A DNA stretch of 64,000 nt from Okeania sp. SIO2C9 (GTDB lineage: Bacteria; Cyanobacteriota; Cyanobacteriia; Cyanobacteriales; Microcoleaceae): assembly GCF_010672455.1 (NCBI RefSeq), contig NZ_JAAHGO010000001.1, forward strand, positions 32,382 to 96,381, written 5' to 3'. Below the pieces are notes generated by a model that worked only from the letters and a program-made list of their open reading frames with translations, ran no database searches and was not told the DNA's origin. Positions 3,369-56,068 of the stretch are shown here, piece after piece. The translations under genes were made by a program, and so were the position numbers. Numbering within the stretch: position 1 is the stretch's first letter; each line of letters begins with the position of its first letter.

Positions 3369-6113
3369 TCAATCAGAGACTGTCAATTTCGCCTCTACTA
3401 AATCAGCACTACGCTGCAATTGAAAACCCACTTTCTCACAAACTCGTTGCATAGCTATATTCTCAGCTAAAATTGTCGCAACAATTCCCTCTAACTGCTC
3501 ATCTCGACCAATTTGTACCAGTCGCAATAACAATTCCGTTCCTAACCCCTGACGTTGATAGGGGTCGCTCACTAACATGGAAAATTCTGCTTCATTTACC
3601 CCATGTGACTTACTCAAGCGACCTGCTCCTAAAATCTCATGGTTTCCTGTTTCCGGATTTTTATAATCCACTACCAATGCCATTTCCCGATAATAATCAA
3701 TAAAGCAAATCCTAGTTAACCGTTCGTGAGCAATGCGACGACTCAATTTGAGAAAGTTAAAATAACGAAAATACACACTTTCCTCAGATAATGTTTTGTG
3801 GAACTGAACAATTAACGGTTCATCCTCTGGACGAATAGGACGAATAGTCACCTCAGCACCATTTTTCATTTGCCAAGGTTTGATATATTGAGTCGGATAC
3901 GGACGAATAGCTGGCGATGGCAATTTTTCTACACCCACACTCTTGTCATGGAGAACTACCCGTGCATCCAAAGCAATTAAACGTTCCGAAGAAGCCAAAA
4001 GTGGATTAATATCAATTTCCTTGATCCAAGGTTGCTCTACCACTAACTGACTAAATTTCACCATTAACTTTTCCAATGCTGCCAGATCCACAGCTTTACG
4101 TCCCCGAACACCTTTGAGAGCTTGGTAGATTTTTGTTTGTTCTATCATGCGACGGGCAAGAGTTGTATTCAGAGGCGGTAATGCTATTGCCCGGTCTTTA
4201 AACACCTCTACCAACTGACCACCCGTACCAAATAACAATACCGGACCAAATTGTGGATCGATACTGCTACCAATAATCAATTCATAACCAATGTCTAAGC
4301 TTAACATCGGTTGCACTGTCACCCCTAAGAAATGCTCAGAACCGACCTTCTCAGCTACGGATGTTTGAATATTCTGATATGCCCATTTTACTGCTGCTGC
4401 ATCTTTGAGATTTAACTGCACTCCACCCACATCAGTTTTGTGAGTAATGGTCTCAGAAAAAAGCTTCAGTACTACGGGATAACCAATAACATCCGCGTGT
4501 TCCACTGCTTCAGCTTCAGTTTTAGCAATCAATGTCTGCACAATAGGAATGCTATAAGCAGCCAAAACCCGTTTCGACTCAGACTCAGTAAGAATAGTTC
4601 GGTTCCCATCCTGAGCAGTTTTGATAATTTGCTCAACTACAGAACAGTTAGGACCTTCTTCTTGTTCTTGTGCTAGCACTGGTGTTTCATATATACCTTG
4701 CAGGTTATAACTATATTTCCACATAAAGTTAAACAACCGTGCTGCTGCATCTGGATAACGATAAGTGGAAATACTAGCGCGATTCAGTATTGTTTCACCT
4801 GTGGTTACTTCATCTCCTCCCATCCAACTTGCTAATACTGGTTTTTTGGCAGTCTGAGCATAATGTTTCAACTGTTCTGCGGTTTGAGTGGGGTCTGTCA
4901 TAGCTTGAGGAGTCAAAATTACAAGCAAACCGTCAGTATTAGGGTCTTTGACTGCTACTTCTAAGGTTTTGTGATAACGTTCGGGGTCAGCATCACCAAG
5001 AATATCAATGGGGTTACTATGACTCCAGTGAGTGGGCAAAAACTCATTCATTTGAGTAATGGTTTCTTCTGCTAGTGGAGCAAGTTCCCCACCAGTTGCA
5101 ATCAGAGCATCAGTAGCTAGAACTCCCGGTCCCCCAGCGTTAGTAATAATTGTCAATTTTGGTCCTTTGGGAATCCTTGGCTGTTTTGCCATCACTTCTG
5201 CCATATCAAATAGTTCAGAAATACGATTCACCCGCAATACTCCACAGCGACGGAAAGCAGCATTGAGAACTTCATCGCTACCTGTGAGAGAACCTGTATG
5301 AGAAGCAGCAGCTTTGGCAGCGGCTTCGGTTTGACCTGCTTTGATTACTATTATTGGTTTGGTTAATGCTACTTCCCTAGCAGCAGATAGGAACGACCGC
5401 GCATTGCCAATGGATTCCATATAAATAACAATACTCTTGGTGTGGGGGTCATCACCGAGATAATAAATGAGGTCGCCCCAATCTACATCTAGCATGGAAC
5501 CGATGGAGACAAAAGCACTGAAACCAACGTTTTCGGGGAAACTCCAGTCGAGGACTGCTGTACAGAATGCCCCACTCTGACTAATGAAACCAACGTTTCC
5601 AGGGTTTGCCATTGTGCTAGCAAAGGTGGCATTGAGTCCGCTATGAGGATTCATTAAACCTAGACAGTTAGGGCCGATAATTCGCATTTTGCCCCTAGCT
5701 GTTGCCATGATTTGTCGTTCTAATTCTATGCCTTCTGGTCCAATCTCTTTGAATCCAGCGGAGACTATGATCGCGCCTTTTATACCTACTTCTACACATT
5801 CACGCACAGCATCAGGGACCATTGGTGCGGGTATAGCAATAATTGCTAAGTCTACTGGTGCTGGTATGGCTTTAATATTTGGGTAAGCTGGAATTCCTAA
5901 CACACTATGACGTTTGGGATTAACTGGAAAAATTGTGCCTCCAAAAGGGTTGCTGAGTAGATTCCAGAGAATTGTGCGTCCGACACTGCCGACTCGGTCT
6001 GTAGCACCAATTACTGCCACATTTTCTGGGGCAAATATTGAGGTTAGGGGTTGTCGCTCTGCCCTCAGAATATCATAGCTTGAGTCTGTTGTTTTTTGAG
6101 GTATTTGTAACAT
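3369..6113 (-). CDS. NDP-forming acyl-CoA synthetase fused to GNAT acetyltransferase (Pat-like)
   Basis: Residue order: CoA-binding Rossmann domain (about 20-150, [14 protein letters not shown]), succinyl-CoA-ligase-like domains including the phospho-acceptor His in [10 protein letters not shown] near residue 270, an ATP-grasp domain (about 490-700, [18 protein letters not shown]) and a C-terminal GNAT domain (about 750-905) with the acetyl-CoA loop [11 protein letters not shown]. Known family members either make acyl-CoA with ATP or, when the synthetase part is inactive as in Pat/YfiQ, acetylate lysines to control metabolism. The His is retained here, so synthetase activity is possible. Start set at ATG 6113 because AAAGGGG lies 7 bases upstream; a longer frame from TTG 6134 would place that ribosome binding site inside the gene. 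Monocistronic. Confidence 0.88.
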
Positions 6114-52787: not shown

Positions 52788-54313
52788 TTAATTATTCGGT
52801 AAATATAGATCGCTAGGGTTTTGACTCAAACAATCTTGAAATAGTTGGGAAGCTTGACTGAATTTTATTTGATAATAAAATATGATTGCTTCTTTATATA
52901 TATGTTTTGTAATTGTCTTACCATCATAATATTCAGGTGGATCTGCATCAAAAACTTCAAATACTGTCACCATTTCTGCTTTTCCCTTTACCTTAACTCT
53001 ATCAATTAATCTAATAGAATATTTTCCTGGATTTTCTAATGATATAAATGTAGAATTACTCATTAATAAAGACACATCATATAATTTGGTCAGTTCTTCT
53101 AAACACTCGTCTTTTCAACATCAAGAATATGACTTCCTATTTCTGTGATTTCCTGCAAAGCAGCCTGCAAGTTTCCTCCATATAAATTTTTACTTTTAGC
53201 TATTTTCAACAATCCATTCTGTTGTTTTTTTAGACTATATTCTCTAGTTCATATTCCCGACTACGCTACAATTTTTTCTTGAATTTCTCTTTCTAAAACA
53301 GTATTTGCTTTTACTAACTCAGCAGTACGTAAACGCAATTCTTCTGTAGCTTCTTTAACTCTACTTTCTAACTCATCATAAGTATGACGACGGGCTATTT
53401 CTGCTCTTTGGCGAAGTAGTTCAGAAGTTGCTCTAGTCGCAAAAACTTTCATCATTGCTATGGTATTTTCTGGGTTAGCTAAAATTTTATTATTAACCAC
53501 ACACAATACCCCAATTACTTGATGATGTTCATCTAACAATGGCATTCCTAGATAAGATTCAGCTTTCATATTTTGCAAAATAGTTTTGTCAGGAAAAATT
53601 TCCTGAATTTTTTGGGGATAACAACATAATTTCTCTTCATTAATAACTGTTCCACAGGGTAAATTTAGGAAATTATATTTGATATTATCTCTGATTTTTC
53701 CCTTTCCCCAAATAGCTAATGTTTTTAACTCGAAAGAGTCGTTAATTTTTTCACTAACAATTACATAAGTAACATTCAAAGCTTTTGCTAAATTTTCTAC
53801 TCAAGCTGGAAAAAATTCTTCTCCTGTAACAGAAGAAGTTGCCACAACAATATTTTGTAATATCTGTTCTGTTTGTTGACGCTCTAATATTTGATGTTGT
53901 AATTCTCGATTAACTGCTTCTAGTTGTTCCGGCGTTTTTAAAGCCAGAAATTGAGGCAAAAGTGTAGCCATTTGTAAAGCTGTATAACAAGAAACTAAAG
54001 CAGTTAATGCTTGTTCTACCCCGGAAAACCAGTAAGCAGGATACCACAATGTCCAGATTTCTACTAAATGACCAAACCCACATAAAATAATGAATGCTCC
54101 AAATAAAATGAATACTCCTAAAAATGGAACTTCTTTTTTTCGTTTACAGAGAAAATACAGCAACATTGTTGGTATAGAAAAATAGGCGATCGCTATTAGT
54201 AGATCGCTCAGAAGGTGGAGCCATACTAATGAAGTTTGCCATAAATAGCAATTACCGTGAGGCATATATTGAGTTGGAGAAAAAATTGTTTTTAATAGTT
54301 CCCACATTTTCAT
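52788..54313 (-). pseudogene. Ethylene-receptor-like membrane GAF/cyclase sensor, decayed
   Basis: From ATG 54313: three membrane helices resembling the ethylene-binding domain (SDLLIAIAYFSIPTMLLYF and FGAFIILCGFGHLVEIWTLW, which keeps the Asp and the Cys-x3-His copper ligands of plant ETR1), then a coiled coil and a GAF domain (53260-53820). A TGA interrupts FFPA/VENLAKAL at 53801. Further stops lie at 53257-53220. After a GAF-like start (ITEIGSHILDVEKTSV) the frame jumps into LEELTKLYDVSLLMSNSTFI, the C-terminus of adenylate/guanylate cyclases (IDRVKVKGKAEMVTVFEVFDADPP), ending at 52788. The cyclase catalytic core is therefore deleted. Confidence 0.75.
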
Positions 54314-55011
54314 TTTTATTATCTTAAATTATGATTACTATGGAGGAGTCAGGAGTTAAAAGTTAAAAGTCAAAAGTTAAAAGTCAAAAGTTAAAAGTCG
54401 GAATTCAGGAGGTAAGAATAAGGAAGAGGATAAGAAAGTTTTTGTTTCGTGCTATTAAGCTTACATTATATAAAGCTTCTGGATACCTTAAATTTTAGAT
54501 ACAGGATTTCTTTATTTTTGACTTTTGATGTTATTTATGTTGGGATGAGTTTGTATAAACCAAAAGTTCAGCAATTAACAATTAACAATTAATAATTACC
54601 TCTTCTTAAAACGGATAGGATTGACTAAAAGGATTTTTTTGATTCTCTTGGTCGATTGGATATGGCGCAGGTTTCCTCGCTATCCCATCCTACGGATGCT
54701 CCGCAAACGATCGCTTTATCTCCTTAAAAGGGGAGGCTTCAAGGCGTGAATTGTTGAATAAATAATTATTAACTATCAACTCTTAATTATTCATTATTCA
54801 TTATTCATGATTCAGTAAATATCTACAGAAAATTTAAGTTTTTTCCAGCTTTAAACCTTCTTTCCTCTTCCTTCTTCCCTCTTCCTTCTTCCCTCTTCCT
54901 TCTTTCTTCTAGTACCAAAAGGTGAAGCCCTAAGTTCTGTCCTTACTTAGGGCCTCATTTTATCACTCAATTGCACATGCGATCGCATTTAATTCTCGGT
55001 TTTAATCTTCA
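54314..55011. other. Intergenic repeats and a strong hairpin
   Basis: AAAAGTTA tandem units (54354-54400), a TAATTACCTC family copy (54593-54752), a TTCCTCTTCC array (54868-54910) and the hairpin at 54927-54953. A HIP1 octamer occurs at 54980. No gene seen. Confidence 0.6.
54927..54953 (-). terminator. Possible terminator of the tRNA-like RNA locus
   Basis: GCCCTAAGT and ACTTAGGGC pair perfectly (9 bp) around a 9-base loop, about 60 bases downstream of tRNA-like RNA B on the minus strand. The T-tract after it (TTCACCTTTTGG) is weak, so termination is an inference from position. Confidence 0.45.
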
Positions 55012-55104
55012 ATCATTGGGTTTTACCAGTTAAACTATCCCGGCGTATAAATTTGTGTATAATATTGGAGCCAGGAGCTGGATGCGAGCCAGCATTTCAA
55101 TGAT
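55012..55104 (-). ncRNA. tRNA-like RNA B in circularly permuted order
   Basis: Read on the minus strand: ATCATTG (55104-55098), AAAT, T-arm GCTGG-CTCGCAT-CCAGC (55093-55077), 3' acceptor strand TCCTGGC (55076-55070), TCCA, 21-base spacer, 5' acceptor strand GCCGGGA (55044-55038), TA, D-arm GTTT-AACTGGTA-AAAC (55035-55020), C, CAATGAT (55018-55012). Acceptor strands pair over 7 bp with one G-U; the first and last segments pair over 7 bp as an anticodon-like stem. The T-loop departs from TTCGA. CCA follows the acceptor at the expected place. It could be a permuted tRNA or a tRNA-mimicking Y-RNA. Hand folded. Confidence 0.55.
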
Positions 55105-55176
55105 ATTTTTCCTCGAAACTCGTTCTCGCGACAGTGATGAATATTAAGCTTGGAGTAATAGCTTCATCTTGAAAAT

Positions 55177-55260
55177 GTAAAAAATATTGCCTCTACCTAT
55201 TTGGGCTACTTCGCTAATAAAGCGAAGGTCAGAATCGAACTGACACTATAATATTTCTAC
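55177..55260 (-). ncRNA. tRNA-like RNA A in circularly permuted order
   Basis: Minus strand: GTAGAAATAT (55260-55251), TATAGT linker, T-arm GTCAG-TTCGATT-CTGAC (55244-55228, canonical T-loop), acceptor strand CTTCGCT (55227-55221), loop TTATT, acceptor strand AGCGAAG (55215-55209), TA, D-arm GCC...AATAGGTA...GGC (55206-55189) with the G-G pair, A, ATATTTTTTAC (55187-55177). Acceptor pairs perfectly over 7 bp; the outer segments pair over 10 bp with one bulge, so the stem runs through the place of an anticodon loop. That favours a tRNA mimic such as a bacterial Y-RNA (YrlA type) over a real tRNA. About 77 bases downstream of the gene ending at 55337, same strand. Confidence 0.6.
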
Positions 55261-55336
55261 GGTTTAAATTAAAGTTTGAGATTTAATTTATACTCCAATT
55301 TAATAATAACTCAAACTATAAAATTTGACAACTTAA

Positions 55337-56068
55337 TTAACTAAATAAATATTGAAAAATACGCTCTCCAACTCTTTGTTCTTCTGTCTCAGAATTATTA
55401 GCTTCTTCACGAGCAAACTTAACAGCTTGGGAAAGCTTTTCTAACTTTTCCAACATTTCATTAACCCGACGTGCAGGCAAAGCACCAGAAAATTTTACCG
55501 TCCGCCAATAGCCAATAGTAACATCTTCATAATATACCTCCACTTGTGCGGGGTGATGTTCCGTTGCTTCGGCCTTAACGTGGTTACGAGGAGTTTTGAA
55601 AGTTCGCAAAGTTTGGACTGGTTCCGTTGCCCAACAATCAGAAGATTGGTCAAATGTCCAAGTATCTGCTGCATCCAAAACAGGCAATTTTTTAATAAAA
55701 GACCGTAAGTCCGTAAACTGCTTTTCTAGAAACAATAGATAACTAACCGGAGCTTGAGTCAACAGAGTTTGACCATCCACCACAACATCAGCGCGGGCGG
55801 TACAGTTTGTCCAATCTTTTGTTGCCGTCACATCAAACAACTTGGTTAATACTTCGGCGGTTTTGCGGATAATCTCTTGTGCTTTAACCTCCAGCTTTTT
55901 CGACTCTGGTGGGAGTTGTTCTCCCTCCTCATCCTTGGGGCGATAAGTTCGAGAAATACCGGAAAGTAAAGCGGGTTTCTGCAAAGCTTTTTGAGCTTCT
56001 GCTAGTTCCTGCACTGACCGACTTTTAATTCCTTTTTCAATCGCAATAATTTGATTTAGTCGTGCCAT
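55337..56068 (-). CDS. Conserved protein of unknown function next to tRNA-like RNAs
   Basis: 243 residues: MARLNQIIAIEKGIKSRSVQ, then LLSGISRTYRPKDEEGEQLPPES, DVTATKDWTNCTARADVVVDG, VSYLLFLEKQFTDLRSFIKKLPVLD, TFKTPRNHVKAEATEHHPAQVEVYYEDV and a closing helix EKLSQAVKFAREEAN. I recognise it as a widespread uncharacterised family also found in actinobacteria and phages (I believe DUF7873; not verified). No catalytic motif is evident; conserved basic residues and the Trp/Cys-rich middle would suit RNA or protein binding. It is directly upstream of two tRNA-like RNAs on the same strand, so cotranscription is likely. No signal peptide. Confidence 0.82.
   Translation of the reverse strand: MARLNQIIAIEKGIKSRSVQELAEAQKALQKPALLSGISRTYRPKDEEGEQLPPESKKLEVKAQEIIRKTAEVLTKLFDVTATKDWTNCTARADVVVDGQTLLTQAPVSYLLFLEKQFTDLRSFIKKLPVLDAADTWTFDQSSDCWATEPVQTLRTFKTPRNHVKAEATEHHPAQVEVYYEDVTIGYWRTVKFSGALPARRVNEMLEKLEKLSQAVKFAREEANNSETEEQRVGERIFQYLFS

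Follow-up and report, generated by a model that had tools for sequence, protein, structure and literature searches.

Introduction

The closest described counterpart of the locus studied here is the bacterial Y RNA of the YrlA type, together with its protein Ro60 or Rsr. In Ro60-Y RNA complexes, Ro60 grips the basal stem, and PNPase is bound by the tRNA-like portion of the RNA (PMC8394870, PMC4726728); dihydrouridine and pseudouridine are also reported in the D and T loops of YrlA (PMC8394870). Among the features of a bacterial Y RNA are a module of T-arm, acceptor hairpin and D-arm carried on a basal stem, a neighboring gene for Ro60 or Rsr, and binding of the basal stem by Ro60. A tRNA-like domain in permuted order is also found in two-piece permuted tmRNA, where it is cut in the acceptor loop.

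Here we analyze a stretch of 64,000 nucleotides from the cyanobacterium Okeania sp. SIO2C9 (the window). An initial annotation, made from the letters alone, had marked two consecutive minus-strand segments as tRNA mimics in circularly permuted order, likening them to YrlA and to permuted tRNA genes. Comparison with related loci identifies these segments, A and B, as the cores of two larger domains in one predicted RNA linked to DUF7873, the protein family encoded just upstream. Gene and RNA recur together in many bacteria and phages, which suggests an RNA-protein machine, so far undescribed, that would handle or imitate tRNA. Literature on Ro60 or Rsr, on Y RNA, on permuted tRNA and on phages, among it PMC7824862, PMC10085705 and PMC9569102, gave no description of the A/B RNA in the passages covered, although this does not establish its absence from print; the literature search likewise found no paper on DUF7873.

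Results

Two permuted tRNA-mimic modules

Module A (55244-55189) and module B (55093-55020) lie on the minus strand, and sequence, folding and a descriptor scan agree on the order of their parts: T-arm, 3' acceptor strand, spacer, 5' acceptor strand and D-arm. In both, TA stands between the 5' acceptor strand and the D-arm, and the strands that flank the module pair. Across the whole 64-kb window, with both strands scanned, A (38.5) and B (35.5) have the two highest descriptor scores, the next being 32.5. The parts of the modules are as follows.

55250..55260, minus strand: A, outer (anticodon-like) stem, 5' strand (minimum-energy fold)
55228..55244, minus strand: A, T-arm with loop TTCGATT (fold, descriptor, covariation)
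55221..55227, minus strand: A, acceptor 3' strand (descriptor, covariation)
55209..55215, minus strand: A, acceptor 5' strand, followed by TA (descriptor, covariation)
55189..55206, minus strand: A, D-arm GCC..GGC with GG in the loop (descriptor)
55177..55188, minus strand: A, outer stem, 3' strand (minimum-energy fold)
55098..55104, minus strand: B, outer stem, 5' strand ATCATTG (fold, descriptor)
55077..55093, minus strand: B, T-arm with loop CTCGCAT (fold, descriptor, covariation)
55070..55076, minus strand: B, acceptor 3' strand TCCTGGC (descriptor, covariation)
55066..55068, minus strand: B, CCA at tRNA positions 74-76 (sequence; enriched in relatives)
55038..55044, minus strand: B, acceptor 5' strand GCCGGGA, followed by TA (descriptor, covariation)
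55020..55035, minus strand: B, D-arm GTTT..AAAC (descriptor, covariation)
55012..55018, minus strand: B, outer stem, 3' strand CAATGAT (fold, descriptor)

In A, the T-stem GTCAG/CTGAC pairs at 5/5 positions and closes the loop TTCGATT, the acceptor CTTCGCT/AGCGAAG pairs at 7/7, and the D-arm GCC/GGC carries GG in its loop. In B, the T-stem GCTGG/CCAGC (5/5) closes the loop CTCGCAT, the acceptor TCCTGGC/GCCGGGA pairs at 7/7 with one G-U, the D-arm is GTTT/AAAC, the outer stem has 7 bp, and TCCA follows directly on the 3' acceptor strand. The two permuted segments, their acceptor and T-arm counts, the T-loop and D-loop GG of A and the CCA behind the acceptor strand of B are thus as the initial annotation had described them, and so is the outer stem of B; that of A, which it gave as 10 bp with a bulge, has 11 bp plus a bulge in the minimum-energy fold. 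Its coordinates hold for the module cores, and the basal helices described below lengthen the element to about 55296-54923.

Folding energy alone is weak support for the modules: compared with shuffles, the z-score was -1.95 for the A segment, -1.07 and -1.19 for the B segment, -1.74 for A and B jointly, and -2.97 for the 377-nt element, for which 0/100 shuffles were equally stable. When each segment was folded, as had been proposed, the T-arm formed in short segments, that of B included, and module A formed in long constructs as well. In the minimum-energy folds of long constructs, only the acceptor helix of B appeared, its T-arm being displaced by other pairing and its D-arm unformed, and B therefore rests on comparative evidence. 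ARAGORN called no tRNA or tmRNA in the 64-kb window, and Rfam at gathering thresholds, including the YrlA and tmRNA models, returned nothing there.

A two-domain RNA downstream of DUF7873

Beyond the modules, the following features make up the locus, beginning with the upstream gene.

55337..56068, minus strand: gene for the DUF7873 protein, 243 aa, putative upstream partner (Pfam PF25283, E 6e-115)
55303..55331, minus strand: sigma-70-like promoter TTGTCA-17-TATTAT (10/12 consensus positions; 6 nt separate it from the first helix of A)
55138..55298, minus strand: domain A, match to model R1 (116.6 bits; the window sequence is in the R1 training set)
55291..55296, minus strand: A, basal helix P1, 5' strand GGAGTA (covariation)
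55152..55157, minus strand: A, basal helix P1, 3' strand TACTCC (covariation; unformed in the single-sequence minimum-energy fold)
54956..55149, minus strand: domain B, match to model R2 (116.5 bits; the window sequence is in the R2 training set)
55111..55138, minus strand: B, basal helices, 5' strands, P1 55138-55133, P2 55130-55125, P4 55117-55111 (covariation; alignment A3 columns 19-47)
54962..54999, minus strand: B, basal helices, 3' strands, and a conserved TTAAA stretch (alignment A3 columns 168-208)
54923..54957, minus strand: terminal hairpin, terminator-like (hairpin survey after B)

The covariance models R1 (domain A) and R2 (domain B) were built from 33 and 34 sequences, and each has one match at E 0.001 in the genome of the window, both within the window. 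The basal helices of B were positioned by hand, on both strands, from alignment A3, and its helix P2 has some mismatches in the window sequence.

Aligning related loci for compensatory changes, a check that the initial annotation had named, revealed such changes. In A, 97.5% of 681 cells are paired and 16/21 pairs have changes on both sides; in B, 93.0% of 1247 cells are paired, with changes on both sides in 34/37 pairs. The covariation score was 0.479 for A, versus 0.165 in shuffled and at most 0.113 in slid alignments, and 0.641 for B, versus 0.220 and at most 0.139, and 0/500 shuffles reached the observed value in either domain; these counts are uncorrected for relatedness and the structures were derived from the same alignments. 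All module helices covary except the D-stem of A, which is invariant in alignment A2 and therefore shows no covariation. The basal helices that were counted covary like the tRNA-like stems, as where GGAGCG/CGCTCC in the basal helix of A becomes GAGTA/TACTC in cyanobacteria.

The two domains recur with DUF7873. A stricter descriptor found 151 modules in 103/135 DUF7873 loci (787,587 bases, some loci duplicated) versus 1 in one equal-sized Markov-1 resampling. The models were searched for full-length matches at E of at most 1e-5 in 105 non-identical loci (L029-L135 without the duplicates L111 and L124), made up of 25 viral loci and 80 cellular ones, the best 80 of at least 537. In these loci, which span several phyla and phages, both domains were present in 91, A only in 3, B only in 2 and neither in 9, four of the last being from Herpetosiphon. 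At least one domain was found in 24/25 viral and 72/80 cellular loci. Outside the respective training sets, A was recovered in 62/73 loci and B in 60/72; among loci in neither set, 48/62 had both domains and 53/62 at least one. The module set that the initial annotation expected in related loci is therefore there, in 96/105 by R1 or R2 and in 6/6 of the phages described below, and comparison shows the two-domain structure of the putative RNA and its tie to DUF7873. In the loci tested, the element scored below the cut-off of every Rfam 15 family.

Within the family of the window, R2 had full-length matches below E 1e-10 in 23/61 genomes, 21 of them also carrying DUF7873, several genomes with matches having supplied training sequences. 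Put the other way, 21/25 family genomes with DUF7873 have such a match. The other four are G020, G031 and G040, in which DUF7873 itself is matched only partially, and G047, which has weaker full-length R2 matches. One genome (G041) keeps A and B beside nothing more of DUF7873 than a C-terminal remnant (residues 219-243), and another (G024) has B and no DUF7873 match.

A promoter-like site and a terminator-like hairpin frame the two domains. A terminator-like hairpin follows B in 39/82 loci versus 8/410 shuffles; that of the window (54957-54923) is missing from a standard terminator scan, which allows loops of at most 8. Promoter-like sites are not in excess in the scanned region of the window (5 versus 3.5 +/- 2.0 in shuffles). 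In cyanobacterial relatives, a promoter-like pair matching 6 to 10 of 12 positions lies about 6 nt before the first helix, and this placement relative to P1 is steady while the distance from the DUF7873 stop ranges from 39 to 147 nt for intact genes and up to 325 nt for broken ones. Across all loci with a recognized P1, the promoter excess is modest: 10/57 A loci reach 8/12 positions 3-10 nt before P1 versus 57/1140 shuffles, 13/70 A rows having been dropped because the pattern found no P1. From the site before P1 and the hairpin after B we infer an RNA at about 55296-54923 on the minus strand, probably a structured noncoding RNA of ~375 nt just downstream of the DUF7873 gene, and the terminal hairpin, together with the steadily placed promoter-like site of cyanobacteria, suggests a separate transcript. 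These observations bear on the idea that the element acts in cis within the 3' UTR of the DUF7873 mRNA, controlling processing or stability with no role in trans. All module matches listed for L029-L135 do lie on the DUF7873 gene strand, most of them less than 500 nt from its stop, as that idea would have it; the promoter-like site fixed on P1 rather than on the stop, the RNA kept at a locus with only a gene remnant (L158), the size of the RNA and its tRNA mimicry all speak against it and make it quite improbable.

CCA at the acceptor end

CCA stands at tRNA positions 74-76 in 23/70 A-class and 38/85 B-class modules, where ~0.7 and ~0.8 would be expected from other linker positions. The excess is large, although related sequences are not independent; CCA is present in 61/155 modules overall and absent from 94/155, whereas modules near TROVE genes have it in 0/7. 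For both the CCA and the promoter counts, rows were descriptor matches of at least 31.5 satisfying further conditions in L001-L135 minus duplicates, so that weaker modules are excluded and relatedness is uncorrected, and class was set by the D-stem (GCC/GGC being A), with the consequence that the first modules of some phages are counted as B. CCA would mark either ends used by tRNA enzymes or a trace of tRNA descent.

The CCA excess and the order of 3' half, CCA, spacer and 5' half would fit true permuted tRNA genes, whose transcripts would be circularized and cut at the acceptor into tRNAs. This reading is nevertheless highly improbable: the joined ends form no anticodon stem-loop and run instead from the outer stems into covarying basal helices, most modules are without CCA, and the pathway known from algae and one archaeon (PMC3978253) employs a splicing endonuclease. 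Of the two comparisons drawn in the initial annotation, that with Y RNA holds, since the permuted order is the YrlA order, and that with permuted tRNA is weaker because the joined ends make longer helices without an anticodon loop.

A more specific and rather doubtful version is a Ro60-independent ribonucleoprotein, in bacteria and phages, whose DUF7873 would hold the two non-identical mimics. In that version, the usual tRNA 5' and 3' processing enzymes would open the acceptor loops and expose CCA ends, and the resulting two-piece, two-headed mimic would capture tRNA-handling or tRNA-cutting enzymes, with phages carrying it to safeguard their tRNAs.

The DUF7873 protein and its neighborhood

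Within the family of the window, 25/61 genomes match DUF7873, several of them with a broken or partial gene; in a draw across the class with the own family included, it occurs in 10/291 genomes. Genome contigs hold at least 537 relatives; the best 80, at 69-96% identity to the window protein, were kept, and the sample therefore leans to its close relatives. Titles among these best 80 of at least 537 name Cyanobacteria, Chloroflexi, Actinobacteria, Armatimonadetes, Deinococcales, Acidobacteria and others. Further matches came from viral contigs (27), phage records (72/50,697) and plasmid records (4/72,556).

Neither PHROGs nor PADLOC has a match to DUF7873, NCBIfam has none above cut-off, and PDB sequences gave none below E 0.1. 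Five AlphaFold models had mean pLDDT values from 92.7 to 57.6, and with the best (92.7, pTM 0.76) Foldseek found no match at E 0.001 in PDB or BFVD; the top VIA-align match, TolC (Z 6.4, rmsd above 10), was judged meaningless. The best model is thus confident yet without a good structural match, so that structure offers no functional hint and RNA binding is unsupported by fold.

A coarse search of neighboring genes claims no operon: the larger clusters beside DUF7873 were rejected as probable reverse-frame shadows of DUF7873 itself, and those remaining are common to few loci. On the other side of the RNA, an ORF with an ETR1_N domain (window 53261-54313, minus strand) stops just before a second same-strand ORF, possibly as one interrupted gene.

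Phages and tRNA genes

DUF7873 homologues with 29-50% identity are found in six named phages: Arthrobacter Mimi, Gordonia Phendrix, Vibrio D472, Pseudanabaena Pam2, Rhizobium RHph_Y1_11 and Klebsiella KpLz-2_45. In 6/6, the descriptor locates one or two modules immediately behind DUF7873, weakly so in two of the phages. R1 matches at full length in Mimi, Phendrix, Pam2 and KpLz-2_45, and R2 in Mimi and Phendrix; D472 and RHph_Y1_11 have one module each, and the model matches in D472 are partial and near chance (E 0.02-0.03).

Among the DUF7873-bearing viral records, 16/25 have above-cut-off tRNA genes, and nine of them have 26 to 43. ARAGORN calls tRNAs within the fetched stretch in 11/25 viral versus 2/33 cellular loci, one of the cellular calls falling on the RNA itself, and the link to tRNA arrays is therefore a phage feature. 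In Phendrix, DUF7873 and the RNA lie inside a tRNA array, and in Mimi just after one, whereas L129 and L134 are tRNA-rich records without a tRNA near the DUF7873 locus. The link of the RNA-DUF7873 pair to tRNA-rich phages is a lead. Two further observations were made in viral sequence: the tRNA array of Phendrix contains a tmRNA match of 89 bits (L193 2072-2600) that is absent from the record annotation, and viral contig L126 has three more module-like matches downstream of A/B (5141-5565), one overlapping an ARAGORN tRNA call.

Phage-borne copies lend some appeal to a decoy or antidote, in which the mimics would titrate tRNA-cutting nucleases or toxins and DUF7873 would stabilize the decoy. 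Two mimics without an anticodon loop would suit such a role, as would the occurrence in tRNA-rich phages and the scatter in cells (25/61 in the family, 10/291 in the class draw), and a competitive-inhibitor role has been proposed for YrlA (PMC7790460). We regard a decoy as possible but on the unlikely side, given that the coarse test found no recurrent toxin or nuclease gene beside the pair and that PADLOC has no DUF7873 match.

Relation to YrlA and Ro60

The YrlA model (RF02553), whose use the initial annotation had proposed, gives a divided answer: at a relaxed threshold it matches A at full length (31.5 bits, E 6.6e-5 in 601 bases, against a gathering score of 69), and it has no match to B. 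Its gathering threshold is missed in the window, in 18 family loci, in 20 diverse DUF7873 loci and in 6 phage loci. The 5 TROVE loci scanned, three of which hold Y-type modules, miss it too, and the cut-off therefore says little about membership. Of the features of a bacterial Y RNA, the A/B RNA has the module of T-arm, acceptor hairpin and D-arm on a basal stem; in place of a Ro60 or Rsr neighbor it has DUF7873, and a divergent Ro60 lies on another contig.

DUF7873 itself has no similarity to the TROVE profile (hhalign, Prob 0.1). Pfam TROVE was found neither in the window's own genome nor in any of 24/24 DUF7873-bearing family relatives, and occurs in 19/50 other DUF7873 carriers (19/40 cellular, 0/10 viral). 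The absence of Ro60 from the own genome, as read from Pfam, was rejected: a divergent Ro60 relative lies at G000:C280:31573-33006. A profile of four close relatives of this protein aligns with TROVE (Prob 97.1, E 7.1e-11), although Pfam, run on two relatives' copies, missed both, and matches, some of them partial, occur in 40/61 family genomes. The own copy (L187 4574-6007) has a vWA-like DKSGSM motif. RtcB co-occurrence is uninformative, RtcB being present in 53/61 family genomes; the own RtcB (G000:C290:40724-42200) looks broken, its match being split in two with internal stops.

About 3.6 kb upstream of the divergent Ro60 gene in the window's genome lies a separate module-type RNA (L187 938-1000), with flanks unlike those of A/B. 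Elsewhere, tandem Y-like modules lie upstream of divergent Ro60 at L163 1034-1621 (two, perhaps three), L184 955-1564, L189 5290-5910 and L180 4577-4985 (two each); in L163 and L180, a gene of 156-168 aa stands between modules and divergent Ro60, without a Pfam match in L163. Since the divergent Ro60 has its own modules and DUF7873 is unlike TROVE, this genome seems to carry two distinct Y-RNA-like systems.

The descriptor was itself checked on TROVE loci and found Y-type modules in 5/14 of those fetched. One of them has three tandem Y-RNA-type modules just upstream of its TROVE gene (L140 815-1359), and this row of three, with the two or perhaps three beside divergent Ro60 in relatives, removes the novelty that the initial annotation had seen in tandem modules as such. 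The Rfam nematode sRNA model RF01656 also scores above cut-off beside bacterial TROVE genes, at L138 1186-1254 and L140 3118-3183.

Could the A/B RNA simply belong to the known Ro60 system as one of its Y RNAs, located beside DUF7873 by chance and bound in trans by the genome's divergent Ro60? The weak YrlA match to A, the divergent Ro60 relative in the own genome on contig C280 and a module order identical to that near TROVE genes would fit. That protein, however, has a module-type RNA of its own with different flanks; a DUF7873 match below E 0.1 occurs in 0/14 fetched TROVE loci, two of them overlapping; and 21/40 cellular carriers from other groups are without Pfam TROVE at E 0.001, a count to be read with the knowledge that Pfam misses divergent Ro60. 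We therefore consider this explanation unlikely.

Discussion

The Y-RNA-like, tRNA-mimic reading of the initial annotation is supported, and none of the results it had named as counting against it (no YrlA or tRNA model hit, no covariation across relatives, no module set in orthologous loci) turned up. Judged by sequence comparison, the A/B RNA would be a tRNA mimic of the Y RNA kind with a new protein partner, rather than an established permuted tRNA gene or YrlA family member in the sense of Rfam. The most likely arrangement is a Y-RNA-like ribonucleoprotein built on DUF7873 and presenting paired tRNA mimics. We give a probability of roughly 0.55 to the reading that DUF7873, encoded upstream, has the two-domain RNA of ~375 nt as its partner and that their complex steers or shields tRNA metabolism under stress.

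In the mechanism that we propose, each domain consists of a basal helix with internal loops that bears a tRNA-mimic module. DUF7873 might bind the basal helices, by analogy to Ro60 on the basal stem of Y RNA. The two tRNA mimics would then project outward and could dock or occupy tRNA-handling proteins, such as modifying enzymes and processing or decay nucleases. By this route, the ribonucleoprotein could steer or shield tRNA metabolism under stress, and in tRNA-rich phages it might protect or manage the phage tRNA set.

Through this work, a protein family that spans several bacterial phyla and also occurs in cultured phages gains a candidate RNA partner and a testable role, and tRNA mimicry of the Y RNA type is tied to a protein other than Ro60. 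The occurrence in phages rich in tRNA genes bears on a question of current interest, the means by which phages protect their supply of tRNA.

Several described systems resemble the A/B RNA in part. Two-piece permuted tmRNA shares a permuted tRNA-like domain, and differs in that the window has no tmRNA model match. In the permuted tRNA genes described from algae and from one archaeon (PMC3978253), the 3' half likewise precedes the 5' half and the acceptor end carries a spacer, and N-CCA is shared by part of the modules studied here; unlike these genes, the A/B RNA has conserved basal helices at the joined ends and is without an anticodon loop. Putative phage Rsr proteins with Y RNAs, described for Listeria phage CKA15 and for mycobacteriophages (PMC12282133), are also candidate Y-RNA-type systems borne by phages, although the protein proposed there is an Rsr homologue, whereas here it is DUF7873, with no similarity to the TROVE profile. 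The divergent Ro60 system of the same family has permuted modules nearby, at least two in some genomes, and is set apart by its flanks and its protein. Closest of all is YrlA with Ro60 or Rsr, which has the same permuted tRNA-mimic module closed by a basal stem; the A/B RNA departs from it in scoring below the model cut-off, in having DUF7873 as its putative partner, and in combining two non-identical domains in a fixed order.
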